Below, in pieces: positions 46,160 to 62,713 of a DNA stretch of 64,000 bases; the stretch's first letter is position 1; each line of letters opens with the position of its first letter. Made by a program: the position numbers and the translations under genes. The stretch is from Desulfuromonas sp. (GTDB lineage: Bacteria; Desulfobacterota; Desulfuromonadia; Desulfuromonadales; BM501), in NCBI RefSeq assembly GCF_002868845.1, contig NZ_PKUB01000025.1:1-64000 (forward strand), written 5' to 3'. Below the pieces are notes generated by a model. That model was not told where the DNA came from. It was given only the letters and a program-made list of their open reading frames with translations, and did not search any database.

Positions 46160-48637
46160 ATGAGCGATCAGATGTTTGATGATCAAATGGAAATCATCCG
46201 GGAATTCGTGCAGGAAAGCCGCGACATGATCGACCAGCTCGAACCGACCATCATCGAGCTGGGGCAAAGCTGTCAAAAAGTCGACTGCTGGGAAGCCATG
46301 GGCTGCAGCCAATCGGACTGCCCCCGCCTCGGGCGGCAACTCGACTTCCCCTGCTGGCTGCAGGTCGGCAACATCGGCGAAGGCACGGCCACCTGCCACG
46401 CCGCCGCCTCCGGCCAGGAGTGCCGCAACTGCCGGGTATTAGAAATGACCAACGGCGACGGGGAGACCATCAACGCCATCTTCCGCCTCTTCCACTCCAT
46501 GAAGGGAAGCGCGGGGTTCCTCGACCTGAACCACATCGCCCGCGTCTCCCACGCCGCCGAGAGCCTTCTCGACCTGGTCCGCTCCGGAAAGATCCTGCTG
46601 AAGCCGGAGCACGTCGACTGGTTGTGCCAATCCAGCGACTTTGCCAAGGAGGCCCTTGAACAGGTGGAAGAACAGGGCAACGACGAGGGCATGGCCGAAC
46701 CGGCCGAGATCCTCGCAAAATCCCTGGAGGAGGCCGCCGGGCAGGCCCTCGCCGCGGCGGCCGCCGGACCGGCCCCCGCCGCCGAAGAATCGCCCCCGAA
46801 GCAGGCCGCCCTCGACGATCCCGCCTCCCTGGTCACCCCGGACATGGTGGAGCGTTTCGTCCAGGAAGCGGACGAACTGCTGCAGGGGGTGGAGCAGGAA
46901 TTCCTGAAGTGGACCGAGAACCCGGAGGCGGTCGATTTCGGCAGCCTGTTCCGGAACATCCACAGCCTCAAGGGAAACTGCGGCTTTTTCGGCTACGGTG
47001 CCCTGGAGCGCCTGAGCCACATGATGGAGACGATCCTGGAGGTCTGCAAATCGGGAGCGCCCCTGAGCGTCGCGAACCCGGCCGAGCTGCTCCTGGCCAA
47101 CGTCGACCTGCTGCAGGCCGCCGTGGCCGACCTCTCCCGGGGCGGCGCCGGCCAGATCGAAAACCTCTCCGACCACCTCGAGCGCCTTCAGGCGCTGCTG
47201 CCGCCGGCCGAGGCCCCGGCCGGGGAGGACCGTCCGCCCCAGCTGCTCGGAGAGATCCTCGTCGAACAGGGGACGGTCTGCGCCGAAGCGGTCCAGTCGG
47301 CGATCGCCCTGCAGAAAAAGCCGATCGGCGAGCTGCTGGTGGACATGGGCGCCACCGACCCCCAGAAGGTGGAGAAGGCACTGCAGCAGCAGAAGAAAAC
47401 CCCGCCGTCCAAGGGCCCTGCCGGAGCGAACAAGAAACCGGCCCAGGCGGTCAAGCGCAACGACATCCGGGTCGACCTGGAAAAGCTGGACGTTTTGATC
47501 AACCTCATCTGCGAGCTGGTCATCGCCGAGAACATGCTGATCCACAACCCCGAGATGGAGCACCTCGAGGTCGAGAGCTTCACCCGGGCCGGCCAGCAGA
47601 TGAGCAAGATCGTCCGCGAGCTGCAGGAGCTGGCCATGTCGATCCGCATGATTCCGGTCACCGGCCTGTTCCGGCGCATGCTGCGCCTGGTGCACGACCT
47701 CTCGATCAAATCGGGCAAGAAGGTGGAGCTGCAGCTCTCCGGCGAGGAGACCGAACTGGACAAAACGGTCATCGAGACCATCACCGACCCCCTCGTCCAC
47801 CTGATGCGCAACTCCATGGACCACGGCCTCGAACCCCCGGAGGAGCGCCTTCGGCTCGGCAAGCCGGAGAAGGGGTCGGTGCGCCTCGCCGCCCGCCACG
47901 AGGAGGGCGAGGTCTGGATCACCATCGAGGACGACGGACGCGGCCTGAACCGGGACAAGATCCTGGAGAAGGCGATCGCCAAGGGCCTGGTCGAGGGGGA
48001 CGGCTCCGACATGAGCGACAAGGCGATCTACAACCTCATCTTCCAGCCCGGCTTCTCCACGGCGGACCAGATCACCGACATCTCCGGCCGGGGGGTCGGG
48101 ATGGACGTGGTCAAGCAGAACCTGGACAAGATCAAGGGCAAGATCGAGGTCCACAGCAAGCCGGGCCTCGGAACCCGCCTGACCCTGCGCATCCCCCTGA
48201 CCCTGGGGATCATCGACGGCATGATGGTCCGGGTCGCCGACACCAAGTGCATCGTGCCGACCCTGGCGATCCGCGAGGCCTTCCGCCCGGAGGCGGACCA
48301 GATCACCACCACCCCCGACGGCGAAGAGCTTGTGCGGGTGCGGGAGAGCTTCTTCCCCGTCACCCGGCTGCACAAGGTGCTGGACAAGACGCCCGACTCC
48401 GACCGCCTGGAAGACGGGATTCTCATCGTCCTGGAGTACCAGGACCGGGGGATCGCCCTGTTCGTCGACGAGATCCTGGGCCAGCAGCAGACGGTCATCA
48501 AGGGCCTCTCGGACTATATCGGCAACGTGCGCTGGTTCTCGGGCTGCACCATCCTCGGCGACGGGGAAGTCTGCCTCATCCTCGACGTGGGCCACTTTGT
48601 TGAACTGATGGGCAAGAAAGAATCGGCTGTCGCCTGA
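46160..48637 (+). CDS. cheA: chemotaxis histidine kinase CheA with two Hpt domains and a Cys-rich insert
   Basis: CheA phosphorylates CheY in response to receptors. The 825-residue protein has an N-terminal Hpt domain with phospho-site His112 (FHSMKGSAGFLDL), split by an inserted module of eight cysteines (residues about 38-92: DCWEAMGCSQSDCP, FPCW, CHAA, ECRNCRV). A second Hpt follows with His268 (NIHSLKGNCGFFG). A repeat module (362-411, LLGEILVEQG and IGELLVDMG) resembles MshEN c-di-GMP-binding repeats. Then come the dimerisation helices, the ATPase domain (HLMRNSMDHGLEPPEER, EDDGRGLNRDKI, GFSTADQITDISGRGVGMDVVK) and a CheW-like domain. No CheY-type receiver is fused. Confidence 0.95.
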   Translation: MSDQMFDDQMEIIREFVQESRDMIDQLEPTIIELGQSCQKVDCWEAMGCSQSDCPRLGRQLDFPCWLQVGNIGEGTATCHAAASGQECRNCRVLEMTNGDGETINAIFRLFHSMKGSAGFLDLNHIARVSHAAESLLDLVRSGKILLKPEHVDWLCQSSDFAKEALEQVEEQGNDEGMAEPAEILAKSLEEAAGQALAAAAAGPAPAAEESPPKQAALDDPASLVTPDMVERFVQEADELLQGVEQEFLKWTENPEAVDFGSLFRNIHSLKGNCGFFGYGALERLSHMMETILEVCKSGAPLSVANPAELLLANVDLLQAAVADLSRGGAGQIENLSDHLERLQALLPPAEAPAGEDRPPQLLGEILVEQGTVCAEAVQSAIALQKKPIGELLVDMGATDPQKVEKALQQQKKTPPSKGPAGANKKPAQAVKRNDIRVDLEKLDVLINLICELVIAENMLIHNPEMEHLEVESFTRAGQQMSKIVRELQELAMSIRMIPVTGLFRRMLRLVHDLSIKSGKKVELQLSGEETELDKTVIETITDPLVHLMRNSMDHGLEPPEERLRLGKPEKGSVRLAARHEEGEVWITIEDDGRGLNRDKILEKAIAKGLVEGDGSDMSDKAIYNLIFQPGFSTADQITDISGRGVGMDVVKQNLDKIKGKIEVHSKPGLGTRLTLRIPLTLGIIDGMMVRVADTKCIVPTLAIREAFRPEADQITTTPDGEELVRVRESFFPVTRLHKVLDKTPDSDRLEDGILIVLEYQDRGIALFVDEILGQQQTVIKGLSDYIGNVRWFSGCTILGDGEVCLILDVGHFVELMGKKESAVA

Positions 48638-48674: not shown

Positions 48675-50381
48675 ATGTTCGGACGCATGAAGCTGTCGAC
48701 CAAGATCGTAAGCCTGAGCTGCGCCATTATCCTGGCCTTTACCGTCGCCATCCTGTGCCTCTACTCGGTGAGCCGCGACCGCCTGATCGACGCCCGCCAC
48801 GCCAAGGTCCGCCATCAGGTGGAGACCGCCTGGGGGGTCCTGAACCACTTCGCCCAGCAGGCCAAGAGCGGGTCGCTTCCCCTGGAAGAGATCCAGCGCC
48901 AGGCCAAGCAGGCTGTCAAGGAGCTGCGCTACGGCGAGAGCGGCTATTTCTGGATCAACGACCTGGAGCCGCGCATGGTCATGCACCCGATCAAGCCGGA
49001 GCTCGACGGCAAGGATCTCTCCGGCTCGGCCGACCCCAACGGCAAGAAGCTGTTCGTCGCCTTCGCCGACACCTGCAAAAAGTCCGGGGAGGGCTTCGTC
49101 GACTACTTCTGGCCCAAGCCGGGCAACGCGGAGCCGGTGGCCAAGGCCTCCTACGTCAAGCTGCTCCCCGAATGGGGCTGGATCATCGGCAGCGGGCTCT
49201 ACGTGGGGGACCTGAAGCAGGAACTGTTCAAGATGCTCCTCGTCGCCCTCGCCATTCTCGGCACCATTGCCGCGGCCGCCCTGCTCCTCGCCTACGGGGT
49301 CGGGCGCAAAATCTCCGGGGCCATGGCCAAAACGGTCCACATGATCGAGGAGATGGAAATGGGGCACCTCGAAACCCGGCTCAACCTGGACCGGGGGGAC
49401 GAGATCGGCCAGATGGCCCGCACCATGGACGCCTTTGCCGACAGCCTGCAGCACGAGGTGGTGGCCGACCTGGAGATGCTCGCCCGCGGGGACCTCTCCT
49501 TTTCCGTCCAGCCCCGCGACGAAGAAGACGTCATCCGCGGCTCCCTGAGAAAGGTCGCCGAAGACCTCAACGACATCATGATCCAGGTGCAGAGCGGCGC
49601 CGAACAGATCGCCACCGGGGCGGTGCAGGTCGCCGAGGGAAGCCAGTCCCTCTCCGACGGCGCCACCCACCAGGCCAGCTCCCTGGAGCAGATCAGCGCC
49701 TCCATCAACCAGATGAGCTCCCAAACCAAGCAGAACGCCGACAATGCCGCTCAGGCCAGCCAGCTTTCGGGCCAGGCCCACGGAGCCGCCGAGCAGGGCA
49801 ACCGGCAGATGCACGAGATGGTCCAGGCCATGGCCGAAATCAACCAGGCCGGGAAGAGCATCTCCAAAATCATCCAGGTTATCGACGAGATCGCCTTCCA
49901 GACCAACCTGCTCGCCCTCAACGCCGCGGTGGAGGCGGCCCGGGCCGGCAAACACGGCAAGGGCTTCGCGGTGGTCGCCGAGGAGGTGCGCAACCTGGCC
50001 GCACGCAGCGCCAAGGCCGCCCACGAAACCGCCGAACTGATCGAGGGGGCCGTCTCCAAGTCCCAGAACGGGGCGCAGATCGCCGACCGCACCGACCAGG
50101 CCCTGACCGAAATCGTCTCGACCGTCAGCAAGGTCACCGACCTGGTGGCGGAGATCGCCGCCGCCTCCAACGAACAGGCCGAGGGCATCGGCCAGGTCAA
50201 CGACGGGCTCGGCCAGATCGACGGGGTCACACAGCAGACCTCGGCCAACGCCGAAGAGAGCGCCGCGGCCGCCGAGGAGCTTTCCAGCCAGGCAGGGCAG
50301 CTGCAGCAGCTGCTGCGGCGCTTCCGTCTGGCGGGTCATGCCCCCACCGAAGGACACCCCGAGATCCACCTTCTCCCCTGA
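48675..50381 (+). CDS. methyl-accepting chemotaxis protein with single-Cache sensor (mcp1)
   Basis: The 568-residue receptor has a membrane helix at about 10-30, a periplasmic sCache_2-type domain with [30 protein letters not shown] and [14 protein letters not shown], a second helix at about 186-208, a HAMP plus a HAMP-like second module ([14 protein letters not shown]), and the signalling domain with tip [39 protein letters not shown]. sCache_2 receptors often sense small organic acids; the ligand here is unknown. It lies 38 nt after cheA1. Its C-terminus lacks the EFGKY tail of mcp2 and mcp3. Confidence 0.95.
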
Positions 50382-50417: not shown

Positions 50418-50933
50418 ATGAGCGAGAACACCGCAAAAATGAACATCGACCGCTTCGAAGAGGAAGAGGACACCCAGAAGGGGAAATTCCTCACCTTCCG
50501 GCTCGGCAACGAAGACTACGCCATAGAGATCCGCTATGTCACCGAGATCATCGGCATCCAGCGGATCACCGACGTTCCGGACATGCCCGATTACGTTCGC
50601 GGAGTGATCAACCTGAGGGGAACGGTGGTCCCGGTGATGGACGTGCGCTCCCGTTTCAGGCTCCCCCCCCGCGCATACGACGACCGCACCTGCATCGTGG
50701 TCGTTAACATGAACGATACTGCGGTCGGGCTGCTGGTGGACAAGGTCAACGAGGTCTCGGATATCCCCGACGCCCAGATCGAACCGCCGCCGCCCACCCA
50801 GGGCGAGAGCGCCCGCTGCATCCAGGGCCTGGGCAAGATGGGCGAAGAGGTCAAGATCATTCTCGACGTCGACCGGCTCCTCTTTCCTGAGGAGCGGGCG
50901 GGGCTCGGCGAAAGCGAAGGACAGGCGGCCTGA
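50418..50933 (+). CDS. cheW: chemotaxis adaptor CheW (first copy)
   Basis: CheW links receptors to CheA. The 171-residue protein begins with an acidic leader (RFEEEEDTQKG), then the CheW fold: FLTFRLGNEDYAIEIRYVTEIIGIQRITDVPDMPDYVRGVINLRGTVVPVMDVRSRF, and a second half with VGLLVDKVNEVSDIPDAQIEPPPP and KIILDVDRLLF. It is closely similar to the second cheW at 55399, suggesting local duplication together with a receptor gene. Confidence 0.97.
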   Translation: MSENTAKMNIDRFEEEEDTQKGKFLTFRLGNEDYAIEIRYVTEIIGIQRITDVPDMPDYVRGVINLRGTVVPVMDVRSRFRLPPRAYDDRTCIVVVNMNDTAVGLLVDKVNEVSDIPDAQIEPPPPTQGESARCIQGLGKMGEEVKIILDVDRLLFPEERAGLGESEGQAA

Positions 50934-55398: not shown

Positions 55399-55920
55399 AT
55401 GACATCGAGCAGCAACGCCAACGTGCTGGACCAGGGCCTCCTGGGCGAAGAGGAGGAAGACACCCTGAGCGGGAAATTCCTCACCTTCCGCCTCGGCCGG
55501 GAGGACTTCGGCCTCGAAATCCGCTATGTCACCGAGATCGTCGGCCTGCAGAAGATCACCGAACTGCCGGACATGCCCGGCTACGTCAAGGGGGTGATCA
55601 ACCTGCGCGGTGCGGTGATCCCCGTCATTGACGTACGGGTGCGCTTCCGTCTCGAGCCCCGGGAATACGACGAGCGGACCTGTATCGTCGTAGCCCAGCT
55701 GCAAAACCGGGCCATGGGCCTGGTCGTTGACCAGGTCAACGAGGTCACGGAAATTCCAGCCGGCCAGATAGAACCGCCGCCGCGGGCGGGTAGCGCCAGC
55801 GGTGGCGGCTTCATTCAGGGTCTCGGCAAGATCGGGGAGGATGTCAAGATTCTGCTCGATACGGAAAAACTCCTCTCAGATCAGGAACTCGACCTGGTCA
55901 GTTCGCTGGCGGCCGATTAA
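55399..55920 (+). CDS. cheW: chemotaxis adaptor CheW (second copy)
   Basis: The 173-residue CheW has the acidic leader EEEEDTLSG, then FLTFRLGREDFGLEIRYVTEIVGLQKITELPDMPGYVKGVINLRGAVIPVIDVR, and a second half with MGLVVDQVNEVTEIPAGQIEPPPR and VKILLDTEKLL. It is closer to the first CheW here than to the third, which is consistent with duplication of a CheW-receptor pair. It heads the unit containing mcp4. Confidence 0.97.
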   Translation: MTSSSNANVLDQGLLGEEEEDTLSGKFLTFRLGREDFGLEIRYVTEIVGLQKITELPDMPGYVKGVINLRGAVIPVIDVRVRFRLEPREYDERTCIVVAQLQNRAMGLVVDQVNEVTEIPAGQIEPPPRAGSASGGGFIQGLGKIGEDVKILLDTEKLLSDQELDLVSSLAAD

Positions 55921-55968: not shown

Positions 55969-57789
55969 ATGCGCATCGGTATCCAACTCAAAGTGTCCCT
56001 CTTTCTGGCCCTGGTCCTGGCCCTGGTTTTCGGCCTGAACACGGTGGTCACGGTCTGGCAGACCACCGGTCTGCTCGCCGAGTCGGCCGCCTCATCCAAG
56101 GCCTCCCTCAAGGAATCGGCCTTCGACCAGGCCCGCAGCGTCTTTACCAGCCTGCAGATCGGGACCAGGGGATCCCTGCAACAGGGGGACATGGAGTTGT
56201 TCGACCGGCTGCTGACCGATCTCGGCGCCATCGCCCAGGTCCGGGAAATCGGCCTGGCCGATCCCGGGGGGGTCATCAACTACGCCAACCGGCCCCAGGC
56301 CCTTGCGACCTCCCTCGACGAGGCCTTTCTGCAAAAAACCCTGTCTGAACGGGAGAGCCTCCATCACGAGGAACTTGGCGATGACCTCCTGCTGGCCCGG
56401 CCCCAGCGCCTGGAGAGCGCCTGTCTCGAATGCCACGAGGAACGCCGGGAGGGTGAAGTGGCCGGAATCCTCTACATCCGCTTCAGCCTCGAGAAGCTGC
56501 GCGGGGCCGAGGCGGCCATGGAGGCGGCCCTCGGAGCGGCGCGAAAAAAGAGCGCCGCCCTCGGAGCGGCGGCCGGAGCCGCGGCCCTGATCGTGGCGGC
56601 CCTCGGCATCTACCTGCTGCTCGGGGTCCTGGTGCGCCGCCCCCTCGAACGCCTTCGGGAGATGATGGTCGATCTTGAAGCAGGCCGCCTGGTCAAGCGC
56701 CTGGGCATGTCCCAGGGCGACGAGATCGGCCAGACCGCCCACGCCATGGACACCCTCGCCGACAGCCTCCAGAACGAGGTCATCGACTCCCTGCAGAAGC
56801 TGGCCAAGGGGGACCTGACCTTCTCCGTCACCCCCCGCTGCGACGAGGACGCCGTGCGCGGGGCCCTGAAGAAACTCGGCGACGATCTCAACGGGCTGAT
56901 GGGACAGACCCAGACGGCCGGCGACCAGATCGCCATCGGCTCCGCCCAGATCGCCGCCTCCGGCCAGAGCCTGTCCCAGGGGGCCACCCAGTCGGCGGCC
57001 GCGGTGGAGCAGATCACCGCCTCGATGACCGAACTCGCCTCCCAGACCCAGACCAATGCCGACAACGCCAACCAGGCCCATTCCCTGTCCGCCGAGGCCC
57101 GCAGCGCCGCGGAGATGGGGGGCCAGAAGATGCAGGAAATGAGCGCCGCCATGGAAGAGATCAACCAATCGGGACAGGACATTTCCCGGATAATCCAGGC
57201 CATCGACGAGATCGCCTTCCAGACCAACCTGCTGGCCCTCAACGCCGCCATCGAGGCCGCCCGCGCCGGCCAGCACGGCAGGGGCTTCGCTGTCGTGGCC
57301 GAGGAGGTGCGCAACCTCGCCGGGCGCAGCGCCAAGGCCGCCCGGGAAACCTCGGAGCTCATCGAAAGCTCGGTGGACAAGACGCAGAAGGGGGCGATGG
57401 TCGCCGCCCGGACCGCCGAGGCCCTGGACAGCATGGTGGACAAGGTGACCCGGGTCACCGACCTGATGACCGAAATCGCCGCGGCCTCCAGCGAGCAGGC
57501 CCTCGGCATCGGCCAGGTCAACCAGGGACTGGGACAGATCGACCAGGTGACCCAGCAGAACACCGGCAGCGCCGAAGAGAGCGCCGCGGCGGCCGAAGAG
57601 CTCTCCGCCCAGGCCGCGCAGCTGCGCGAGAACCTGGCCCGCTTCAAGCTGCGCCCGGACGGCTCCGAAGCGATGCCGGCCCCGGACAGGACCGTCTCCT
57701 TCGCCCCCCCCGCCGAGTCGGACGATTCCGGCGGATGGGGCTCCCCGGCACCCGGCGCCCCCGAAGACGAGCCGTTCGGCAACGCCTGA
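55969..57789 (+). CDS. methyl-accepting chemotaxis protein with c-type heme sensor domain (mcp4)
   Basis: The 606-residue receptor has a first membrane helix at about 10-28, a periplasmic sensor of about 160 residues, a second helix ([24 protein letters not shown]), HAMP, a HAMP-like unit and the signalling domain. The sensor contains Cys152-Leu-Glu-Cys155-His156, a complete CxxCH heme c attachment site, near its C-terminal end. This matches the layout of the Geobacter chemoreceptors with heme-containing PAS-like periplasmic domains, so a redox or gas/ligand-sensing role is likely. Heme attachment requires export and cytochrome c maturation, which fits a periplasmic location. Confidence 0.93.
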
Positions 57790-59168: not shown

Positions 59169-59534
59169 ATGAGCAAGCAGATTCTGGCCGTAGACGATTC
59201 CAAGTCCATCCTGCAGATGGTGTCATTCACCCTGCAGGGAGCAGGATACCAAGTCGAGGTCGCCGCCGACGGCCAAGCCGCCCTCGAGATGGCCACCCGC
59301 AAGAACTACTCCCTGGTCATCACCGACCTCAACATGCCCCGGCTCAACGGCCTGGAGCTGATCAAGTCCCTGCGCGGCAAGCCCCAATACCGCTTCACCC
59401 CCCTGCTGATGCTGACCACCGAGGCAAGCCCCGCCTTCAAGACCCAGGGCAAGGCGGCCGGCGCCACCGGCTGGCTGGTCAAACCCTTCGACCCCCAGCA
59501 GCTCCTCGGGGTCGTGAAGAAGGTCATCGGCTGA
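59169..59534 (+). CDS. cheY: chemotaxis response regulator CheY
   Basis: CheY-P binds FliM to change rotation. The 121-residue single receiver domain has all active-site residues: Asp9-Asp10 (AVDDS), phospho-acceptor Asp53 (ITDLNMP), Thr83/84 (MLTTEA) and Lys105 (VKPF). No output domain is attached. It lies between the MCP-like gene and the STAS gene. Confidence 0.95.
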   Translation: MSKQILAVDDSKSILQMVSFTLQGAGYQVEVAADGQAALEMATRKNYSLVITDLNMPRLNGLELIKSLRGKPQYRFTPLLMLTTEASPAFKTQGKAAGATGWLVKPFDPQQLLGVVKKVIG

Positions 59535-59595: not shown

Positions 59596-59946
59596 ATGTC
59601 CAACACGAGTCTGGAGCCAGCCCCCGATGCCCAGGGGAACCACGTCCTGACCCTCGAGGGCGAGGTCACCGTCGAGATCCTTCGCGAGCTGAAAGAGACT
59701 CTCGCCGAGAGGCTCGATTCGGCCCGAACCCTCGAGCTCGATTGCGGGAAGGTCACCGGCATCGACGTCTATGCCATCCAGCTGCTCTGCTCCGCCCACC
59801 GCTCGGCCATGGCCGCCGGAAAGGGCCTGGGCTTTGCCGGCGACCCGTCCGAGAAATTCCGGGAGATGGTCCGCGTCTGCGGCTTCGAGCGCAAACGGGG
59901 CTGCTCCCTGTGCCAGGAAGGGGAGCGCTGTCTCTGGATGGCATGA
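59596..59946 (+). CDS. STAS-domain protein of the chemotaxis cluster
   Basis: The 116-residue protein has a STAS fold: GNHVLTLEGEVTVEILRELKETLAERL, then TLELDCGKVTGIDVYAIQLLCSAHRSAMAAGKGL, and a C-terminal helix. At the place where anti-sigma-factor antagonists have a phosphorylatable Ser (usually DSSG), this protein has Asp57-Val-Tyr, so classical phospho-switching is unlikely. The tail holds Cys103, Cys106 and Cys112 in GCSLCQEGERC, which could bind metal. STAS genes between cheY and cheA are seen in other deltaproteobacterial clusters; the role is unknown. Confidence 0.8.
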   Translation: MSNTSLEPAPDAQGNHVLTLEGEVTVEILRELKETLAERLDSARTLELDCGKVTGIDVYAIQLLCSAHRSAMAAGKGLGFAGDPSEKFREMVRVCGFERKRGCSLCQEGERCLWMA

Positions 59947-60016: not shown

Positions 60017-62134
60017 ATGATCGATCAACAAAAGGAGATTTTCCGGGAGGAGGCCAACGAGCTGCTCGCCGAACTGGAGACCTCCCTGCTCGAACTGGAG
60101 GAGAACAGCGGCGACTCCGAACTGGTCGCCCAGGTCTTTCGGGCCATGCACACCATCAAGGGTTCGGGGGCCATGTTCGGCTTCGACGAAGTCGCCGCCT
60201 TCACCCACGAGGTGGAGACGGTCTTCTACCAGGTGCGCAACGGCAAACTCCAGGTCACCAAGGCACTGGTCGACCTCTCCCTCTCCGCCAAGGACCACAT
60301 CCGCTCCCTGCTGGACGACTCCGGAGAGGATCCCGCTGCGATCTTCAGCCGCGGCCAGGGCCTCGTCGACGGCTTTCGCGGGCTGCTGCCGGGCGCCTGT
60401 GAGGCGGACGCAGCCACCCCGGAGCCTGCCGATGCGCCCGCCGCACCCAGGCCCTCCGCCAACGTCACCTACCGCCTGCGCATCCGCCTGCCGAGGGACA
60501 TCATCATGCGCGGCACCCGGCCCCTCTCCCTGCTGCAGGAACTCGAGGAGCTCGGCCCCTGCCGGCTCGTGGCCCAGACCGGGGACATCCCCCTGCTCGG
60601 CGAGATCGACCCCGAGTCCTGTTACGCCTACTGGGAGGGGGCCCTCACCACCGACCGCGGCCTCAACGCCATCCGGGACGTCTTCATCTTCGTCGAGGAC
60701 GACACCGAACTGACCATCGACGTTATCGACGAAGACGACAACCTGGAGAGCGAGAACGACTACAAGCGTCTCGGGGAGATCCTCATCGAGCGAGGCGACC
60801 TCTCCCCCGCCGCCCTGCAGGAGGTCCTCTCCGTACAGAAGCCCCTCGGCGAAATGCTCATGCAGGCCAAGGGGATTCACCCCGACAAGATCGAGGCGGC
60901 CCTGGCCGAGCAGCAGCAGGTGCGGGAGATGCGCCAGAAGCGCCAGGACCAGCAGACCGGCGCCACCATCCGGGTCCCCGCAGAACGCCTCGACTTCCTG
61001 GTCGACATGGTCGGCGAGCTGGTCACCGTCCAGGCCCGGCTCTCCCAGGCGGCCGCCTCCCGCAACGACCCGGACCTCGTCTCCATCTCCGAAGAGGTGG
61101 AGCGCCTCACCGCCGAGCTGCGCGACAGCTCCCTCGACATGCGCATGCTCCCCATCGGCTCCACCTTCAGCAAGTTCAAACGCCTGGTCCGCGACCTCTC
61201 CATGGAGCTGGGCAAGCAGATCGAGATGGCCACCGAGGGGGCGGAGACCGAACTCGACAAGACGGTTATCGAGAAGCTCAACGACCCCCTGATCCACCTC
61301 ATCCGCAACAGCATCGACCACGGCATCGAGACGCCCGAGGACCGTGCCGCCCTCGGCAAGCCGCCCAAGGGGACGGTACACCTGGCCGCCACCCATTCGG
61401 GAGACAGCGTCCTGATCACCATCCGCGACGACGGCCGGGGCCTGAACCGTGAGACGATTCTCGCCAAGGCCGTGGAAAAGGGGCTGGTAGCCCAGGACGC
61501 CCAGCTCTCCGACCGGGAGCTCTTCGCCAAGATCTTCGCGCCCGGCTTTTCGACGGCCCAGAAGGTCACCGGGGTCTCCGGGCGCGGGGTGGGGATGGAC
61601 GTGGTCAAGCGAGCCATCGACGCCCTGCAGGGGAGCATCTCCCTAGACAGCGAGCACGGCCTGGGGACGACCGTCACCATCAAGATCCCCCTGACCCTGG
61701 CCATCGTCGAGAGCCTCCTGGTCAGCATCGGGGGGGACGCCTTCGTCCTGCCCCTGTCGACCGTCGAGGAGGGCGTCGAGCTCACCCGCCAGGACGTGAC
61801 CGCGGCCCACGGCCGCAACCTGGCCCACGTGCGCGGCCAGCTCGTCCCCTACATCCCCCTGCGGGAGCAGTTCGCCATGGCCGGGGAGACCCCCGCCATC
61901 CAGCAGATCGTCATCACCCAGGTGGCCGGCCGCCGGGTCGGCTTCGTGGTCGACCACGTCATCGGCGAGCACCATACCGTTATCAAATCCCTCGGACGCC
62001 TCTACCGCGACGTGGAGGGCATCTCCGGGGCGACCATCCTCGGCGACGGCAGCGTGGCCCTGATCCTCGACGTGCCCAAGCTGGTGCGGGAGGCCGAACT
62101 CCTGGAGGAAGGCCCGCAGCGCAGCGCCATCTGA
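60017..62134 (+). CDS. cheA: chemotaxis histidine kinase CheA (second copy)
   Basis: The 705-residue kinase has one Hpt domain with phospho-site His45 (FRAMHTIKGSGAMFGF), a middle domain (about 150-240: YRLRIRLPRDIIMRGTRPLSLLQELEELG), and a repeat module at 251-299 opening with RLGEILIERGDLSPAALQEVL. It then has the dimerisation segment, the ATPase domain (HLIRNSIDHGIETPEDR, RDDGRGLNRETI, GFSTAQKVTGVSGRGVGMDVVK) and a CheW-like domain ending ATILGDGSVALILDVPKLV. The repeat module is a better match to MshEN c-di-GMP-binding repeats than that of cheA1. It is paired with cheW3. Confidence 0.96.
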   Translation: MIDQQKEIFREEANELLAELETSLLELEENSGDSELVAQVFRAMHTIKGSGAMFGFDEVAAFTHEVETVFYQVRNGKLQVTKALVDLSLSAKDHIRSLLDDSGEDPAAIFSRGQGLVDGFRGLLPGACEADAATPEPADAPAAPRPSANVTYRLRIRLPRDIIMRGTRPLSLLQELEELGPCRLVAQTGDIPLLGEIDPESCYAYWEGALTTDRGLNAIRDVFIFVEDDTELTIDVIDEDDNLESENDYKRLGEILIERGDLSPAALQEVLSVQKPLGEMLMQAKGIHPDKIEAALAEQQQVREMRQKRQDQQTGATIRVPAERLDFLVDMVGELVTVQARLSQAAASRNDPDLVSISEEVERLTAELRDSSLDMRMLPIGSTFSKFKRLVRDLSMELGKQIEMATEGAETELDKTVIEKLNDPLIHLIRNSIDHGIETPEDRAALGKPPKGTVHLAATHSGDSVLITIRDDGRGLNRETILAKAVEKGLVAQDAQLSDRELFAKIFAPGFSTAQKVTGVSGRGVGMDVVKRAIDALQGSISLDSEHGLGTTVTIKIPLTLAIVESLLVSIGGDAFVLPLSTVEEGVELTRQDVTAAHGRNLAHVRGQLVPYIPLREQFAMAGETPAIQQIVITQVAGRRVGFVVDHVIGEHHTVIKSLGRLYRDVEGISGATILGDGSVALILDVPKLVREAELLEEGPQRSAI

Positions 62135-62197: not shown

Positions 62198-62713
62198 ATG
62201 AGTGAACAGGAGAAGAGGGAAGCGACCCAGTACCTCACCTTTGTCCTGGACGAGGAGGTCTTCGCCCTCGACATCACCAAGGTACGCGAAGTGCTCGACT
62301 TCACCGCGGTAACCAAGGTCCCCAAGACCCCCGACTTCATGCGCGGGGTCATCAACCTGCGCGGCTCGGTGGTCCCGGTGGTCGACATGCGCCTCAAGTT
62401 CGGCCTCACCGCCACCGAGCGCACCGTCAACACCTGCATCATCATCGTCGAGATCGAGATTGGGGGCGAAACGACGGTCCTCGGGGCCCTGGCCGACTCG
62501 GTGCAGGAAGTGCTCAACCTGGAACCGGAGCAGATCGAACCGGCTCCCAAGATCGGCACCCGCCTCAACACCGAGTTCATCCGGGGGATGGGCAAGCGCG
62601 ACGAGCGCTTCGTGATCATCCTCGACATCGACAAGGTCTTCTCCTCGGACGAGCTGGCCATTGTCCGGGGGCCGGCCGGGGACGCCCCCCTGCCCGAAGC
62701 CGCGGAGGCCTGA
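62198..62713 (+). CDS. cheW: chemotaxis adaptor CheW (third copy)
   Basis: The 171-residue CheW begins with a short polar leader and QYLTFVLDEEVFALDITKVREVLDFTAVTKVPKTPDFMRGVINLRGSVVPVVDMRLKFGL, followed by LGALADSVQEVLNLEPEQIEPAPKIG and FVIILDIDKVFSSDEL. It is clearly different from the two CheWs upstream and pairs with cheA2, suggesting a second signalling array. AAAAGGAG lies upstream of the ATG. Confidence 0.97.
   Translation: MSEQEKREATQYLTFVLDEEVFALDITKVREVLDFTAVTKVPKTPDFMRGVINLRGSVVPVVDMRLKFGLTATERTVNTCIIIVEIEIGGETTVLGALADSVQEVLNLEPEQIEPAPKIGTRLNTEFIRGMGKRDERFVIILDIDKVFSSDELAIVRGPAGDAPLPEAAEA

Follow-up and report, generated by a model that had tools for sequence, protein, structure and literature searches.

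The CheA histidine kinase encoded at positions 60017-62134 of the window, the 64,000-nucleotide stretch of Desulfuromonas sp. DNA analyzed here, contains two tandem motifs in the linker between its P2 and P3 regions. Profile comparisons have shown that residues 251-299 form a tandem-motif module derived from MshEN, matching the N-terminal, ligand-binding half of that domain. This MshEN-derived module in CheA is real and widespread, and its spacer is altered. The module plausibly provides a direct c-di-GMP input to CheA, and such an input is about as likely as the alternative, a structural role after binding has been lost.

The CheA gene and its domains are located as follows.

60017..62134, + strand: CheA histidine kinase, 705 aa (ORF and Pfam scan)
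Residues 7-100: Hpt (Pfam)
About residues 148-238: region in the P2 position
Residues 251-299: MshEN-like module
60965..61138, + strand: dimerisation (P3) helices, residues 317-374 (Pfam H-kinase_dim, E 7.8e-12)
Residues 423-560: HATPase_c (Pfam)
Residues 566-693: CheW-like (Pfam)

Hpt, H-kinase_dim, HATPase_c and CheW occur in the expected order, each above its Pfam cut-off. The module lies downstream of the P2-position region and upstream of H-kinase_dim (317-374), which is the placement between a P2-like region and the dimerisation helices that the earlier note had described. The P2-position region (60458-60730, ~90 residues) has no sequence match in Pfam or the PDB and is kept among relatives.

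Positions 60767-60916 encode residues 251-300 of CheA, in which the two motifs and the spacer can be read directly.

60767..60838, + strand: motif I, residues 251-274 (R251-Q274), RLGEILIERGDLSPAALQEVLSVQ (direct reading; NF053729 stretch on exactly the same bases)
60839..60841, + strand: one-residue spacer, K275 (direct reading; the four-residue hhalign gap falls exactly there)
60842..60913, + strand: motif II, residues 276-299 (P276-Q299), PLGEMLMQAKGIHPDKIEAALAEQ (direct reading; NF053729 stretch 60842-60922)
60914..60955, + strand: residues 300-313, over which the last helix of the module is predicted to run on (AlphaFold)

Several claims made earlier from the DNA alone are borne out here. 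Residues 251-274 fit the 24-residue MshEN pattern, both by reading of 60767-60838 and by NF053729, and a second copy stands close behind, at residues 276-299, with one Lys in between. The spacer is shorter than five residues, consisting of K275 alone, and the second repeat lacks the Arg, its position 1 being P276. The ligand contacts of MshEN, as given by Wang et al. 2016 (PMC5013675), are at positions 1, 2, 3, 17, 21 and 24 of each motif. The corresponding residues are R, L, G, L, L and Q in motif I, all consensus, and P, L, G, I, L and Q in motif II, so that 10 of the 12 contact positions in this CheA are consensus, the exceptions being Pro and Ile. Like the MshEN of Vibrio cholerae MshE (PDB 5HTL; PF05157), the CheA module is built of two tandem 24-residue RLGxx...LxxxLxxQ motifs; it shares four predicted helices with MshEN and largely keeps the ligand-contact residues, but it has a one-residue spacer instead of the canonical five (a 29-residue period), lacks the C-terminal subdomain and is not matched by PF05157.

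Three independent profile comparisons support the relationship to MshEN that had been proposed. NF053729, a 53-position NCBIfam model related to MshE and named cyclic di-GMP-binding domain-containing protein, gives the whole CheA 39.9 bits, above its cut-off of 38, and the isolated module 48.6 bits, and it matches all 58 of 58 CheA modules. The match in this CheA is above the cut-off but is broken in two at the spacer, each stretch covering one motif. When the PDB was searched with a profile made from 27 CheA modules, significant E-values were obtained for MshEN-bearing proteins only, namely PilF (1.7e-26), MshE (5.1e-10) and PilB. Comparison of the CheA modules with MshEN domains of related genomes by hhalign gave 98.6% and a score of 72.8 over 54 columns (67.6 with short-spacer modules alone), and the alignment opens a gap of four residues exactly at the spacer. 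Column shuffles, 100 for each of the two comparisons, peaked at 15.7 and 17.3, five other CheA segments reached at most 14.8, and reversed controls were likewise far below the real comparison. Pfam PF05157 (MshEN, 90 positions) reported neither the whole CheA nor the isolated module at E 10, so the profile check suggested in the earlier note succeeded with NF053729 (39.9 bits against 38) and failed with PF05157. Weak matches to the Pfam family DUF4388, up to 26 bits in relatives (cut-off 25) and 14 bits in the CheA studied here, probably reflect the same hairpin motif.

Among 107 CheA relatives picked by likeness to the whole protein, 46 carry the tandem motif pair in the P2-P3 linker (44 with two motifs, 2 with three). 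The distances from motif start to motif start are 25 (n=29), 26 (n=5), 27 (n=1) and 31-37 (n=13), and a period of 28-30 residues was found in none of the CheA modules sampled from these relatives and further loci. With the further loci added, the 65 non-redundant modules comprise 53 short (25-27) and 12 long (at least 31) ones. Long spacers occur, for example, in CheA proteins from Rubrivivax gelatinosus (L091), Methylobacter tundripaludum (L117) and a Shewanella (L088). MshEN domains in the motif scan, which permitted periods of 24-40 and which ten further loci escaped, have a period of exactly 29 in 27 of 27 cases. Motif II ends in Gln in 65/65 non-redundant modules, while the terminal Gln of motif I, invariant in 25/25 MshEN domains, is replaced in 21/53 short-spacer modules. 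Position 1 of motif II is a mixture of Arg, Pro and Lys. Position 3 Gly is invariant in both motifs of the CheA modules, which carries little weight because the scan demands it. Motif II also has CheA-specific Ala20 and Glu23, whose entropies are 0.14 and 0.75 bits; the same positions of motif I have 2.17 and 3.23. On a tree of the P3-P5 regions, which scores as absent any module that has degenerated beyond the reach of the motif scan, gain or loss of the module requires at least 22 changes, 14 of them forced by well-supported branches. A link between the short spacer and loss of the motif I Gln (kept in 32/53 short and 12/12 long modules; Fisher p 0.006) was dropped, since the CheA tree gives one independent pair only and that pair shows no difference. 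The CheA relatives L036 and L037 have three tandem motifs with a 26-residue period, which suggests that the hairpin is extendable as a repeat. A plasmid search with the module gave no match.

AlphaFold modeling of the module alone (58 relatives; mean pLDDT 82.8, pTM 0.51) predicts helices at residues 252-259, 264-273, 277-285 and 289-313. The helix over 289-313 appears in both AlphaFold models and extends towards the dimerisation domain. The module model, whose global confidence is low (pTM 0.51), superposes on MshE (5HTL) with a TM of 0.36 and an rmsd of 9.5 Å. Foldseek with this model gave no significant match; its 11 weak matches include MshE (5HTL) and PilF GSPII-B (8PFA), both at TM 0.36-0.37 and an rmsd exceeding 9 Å. 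For the longer model (239-410), VIA-align returned only P3-like and other helical hairpins, which are uninformative on the module, and for the module alone it returned a single unrelated weak row (Z 3.0). With modest confidence, the model (pTM 0.51) indicates helices that agree with MshEN, in a predicted packing that differs and lacks the compact four-helix bundle. A structural comparison with MshE had been proposed earlier, and it gave four helices in register and, in this pTM 0.51 model, no MshEN bundle.

Published binders of c-di-GMP bear on the two departures in motif II. In Thermus PilF, GSPII-B has Lys/Leu at position 1 and binds c-di-GMP at 6 nM (PMC11731258), and GSPII-C, in which position 1 of motif II is P335, has an MshEN-like affinity for the ligand (PMC11731258; KD 324 nM in PMC12002112). 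In a resurrected GSPII-A, the cost of reverting two Leu to Ile is 2.4-fold, and the N-terminal half by itself binds c-di-GMP (PMC11731258, PMC12002112). By analogy with these precedents (the Pro of GSPII-C, the Lys/Leu of GSPII-B and the Leu-to-Ile changes in GSPII-A), the Pro and Ile of the CheA motif II can be tolerable for binding. We note that GSPII-A with its consensus restored still does not bind c-di-GMP (PMC12002112), and therefore motif-complete MshEN-like domains can be non-binders. PilF is the top PDB match of the CheA-module profile, and its GSPII-C shares Pro at position 1 of one motif with the CheA module; unlike that module, the PilF motifs are at least five residues apart and sit within complete GSPII domains carried by an ATPase. 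The doubt about binding that had been attached to the second repeat is thus half upheld: the Arg is indeed absent, but the objection is weakened by GSPII-B and GSPII-C, which bind without an Arg there. To our knowledge, no solved MshEN domain has a one-residue spacer. The real obstacle to c-di-GMP binding is the short spacer and not the missing Arg, because the canonical length occurs in no CheA sampled and the predicted model lacks the MshEN bundle.

If the module is the c-di-GMP-responsive element that we infer in the P2-P3 linker at residues 251-299, its two hairpins would hold c-di-GMP between the clusters of Leu and the terminal Gln of each motif, and the motifs would pair either within one chain or from one chain of the CheA dimer to the other. 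Binding would then repack the linker immediately ahead of the dimerisation helices, and this change would tune autophosphorylation or phosphotransfer from P1. The genome gave 39 matches to GGDEF, with one domain split over two of them, and nine full MshEN matches, so c-di-GMP signaling is certainly present, and the roughly 37 GGDEF proteins provide plenty of c-di-GMP to sense. The non-canonical period, the loss of the motif I Gln (21/53), the model with TM 0.36 and the PF05157 miss count against c-di-GMP input. In the portions of the literature on MshEN or T2SSE_N with CheA that were covered, we found no binding or kinase assay on a CheA.

It is also quite possible that a former MshEN module no longer binds its ligand and, with only the hairpin fold kept, now acts in the P2-P3 linker as a structured spacer or an element for protein contacts. 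Every short-spacer CheA has had its spacer cut by about one helical turn, the motif I Gln is gone in 21/53, Arg, Pro and Lys are mixed at motif II position 1, and the predicted model has no bundle, all of which favor this reading. The module is moreover dispensable for the kinase, as it is absent from about half of the CheA relatives and its presence switches many times on the tree. However, contacts that helix packing does not need are kept, chiefly the motif II Gln (65/65), which in MshEN is a phosphate/ribose contact.

A site formed across the dimer appears improbable. CheA is a dimer, and here the spacer would block closure within one chain, so that hairpins of two protomers (for example, motif II and motif II′) would meet at the dimer axis and bind the two-fold symmetric c-di-GMP there. 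The short spacer and the predicted open arrangement are in line with this, as are the position of motif II next to the dimerisation helices, its CheA-specific Ala20 and Glu23 and a terminal Gln kept more strictly than that of motif I. On the other hand, the arrangement is taken from a single-chain model with a pTM of just 0.51, the long spacers of some CheA proteins should permit one-chain closure, and in several relatives the linker that follows the module abounds in Pro and Ala and is presumably loose. If a trans-dimer site does exist, the dimer geometry of the chemotaxis kinase would be set directly by c-di-GMP. The idea that generic amphipathic hairpins resemble the MshEN motif by chance could draw on the motif's many Leu, Glu and Gln residues and on the PF05157 miss, but it was rejected as extremely unlikely given the hhalign shuffles (at most 17.3 against 72.8), the similarly low reversed and other-domain controls and a curated model, NF053729, above its cut-off.

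Known links between c-di-GMP and chemotaxis are PilZ-domain receptors, adaptors acting on methyltransferases, and the flagellar motor. A c-di-GMP receptor module inside CheA, if confirmed, would mean that the gain of the whole array could be adjusted by c-di-GMP at the kinase. The pairing of MshEN with CheA is not new: CheA is named among MshEN-associated proteins in the main text of Wang et al. 2016 (PMC5013675), which describes the same domain combination as in the CheA of the window, and the pairing is flagged by the NCBI model NF053729. We found no binding test for any CheA in that text. The distinguishing feature of the module studied here is its altered spacer, which makes it a variant of a known domain combination. 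As the module is common (46/107 CheA relatives), the question of binding concerns a large class of bacteria, and the short-spacer form bears on whether MshEN-type binding truly depends on the length of the spacer.

The CheA gene sits in a chemosensory cluster that includes several receptors, and the window holds a second CheA (46160-48637) with the same module, a finding absent from the earlier note.

47243..47392, + strand: module in the other CheA, LLGEILVEQGTVCAEAVQSAIALQ-KK-PIGELLVDMGATDPQKVEKALQQQ, 26-residue period (translation)
50418-50933, 55399-55920 and 62198-62713: three CheW genes
59169-59534: CheY-like receiver
59596-59946: STAS protein

The module profile scores 78 bits on the other CheA, whose sequence is itself among those building the profile, and NF053729 scores 40.4 bits on the locus and 36.5 on the whole protein (cut-off 38). 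Elsewhere in the genome, a 304-aa ORF (G000:C13:48948-49271) has two successive NF053729-type motif pairs. The other CheA contains two Hpt domains and is Cys-rich ahead of the first Hpt phosphorylation site (CWEAMGCSQSDCP...CW...CHAAASGQECRNC), a segment whose residues may bind a metal or an iron-sulphur cluster. Directly 3′ of its gene, a receptor (48675-50381) combines a Cache sensor (dCache_2/sCache_2), HAMP and an MCP signaling domain. Another MCP receptor (55969-57789) has CLECHEE in its sensor region, a possible haem-binding CxxCH motif, together with a weak Tll0287-like match (E 0.007).
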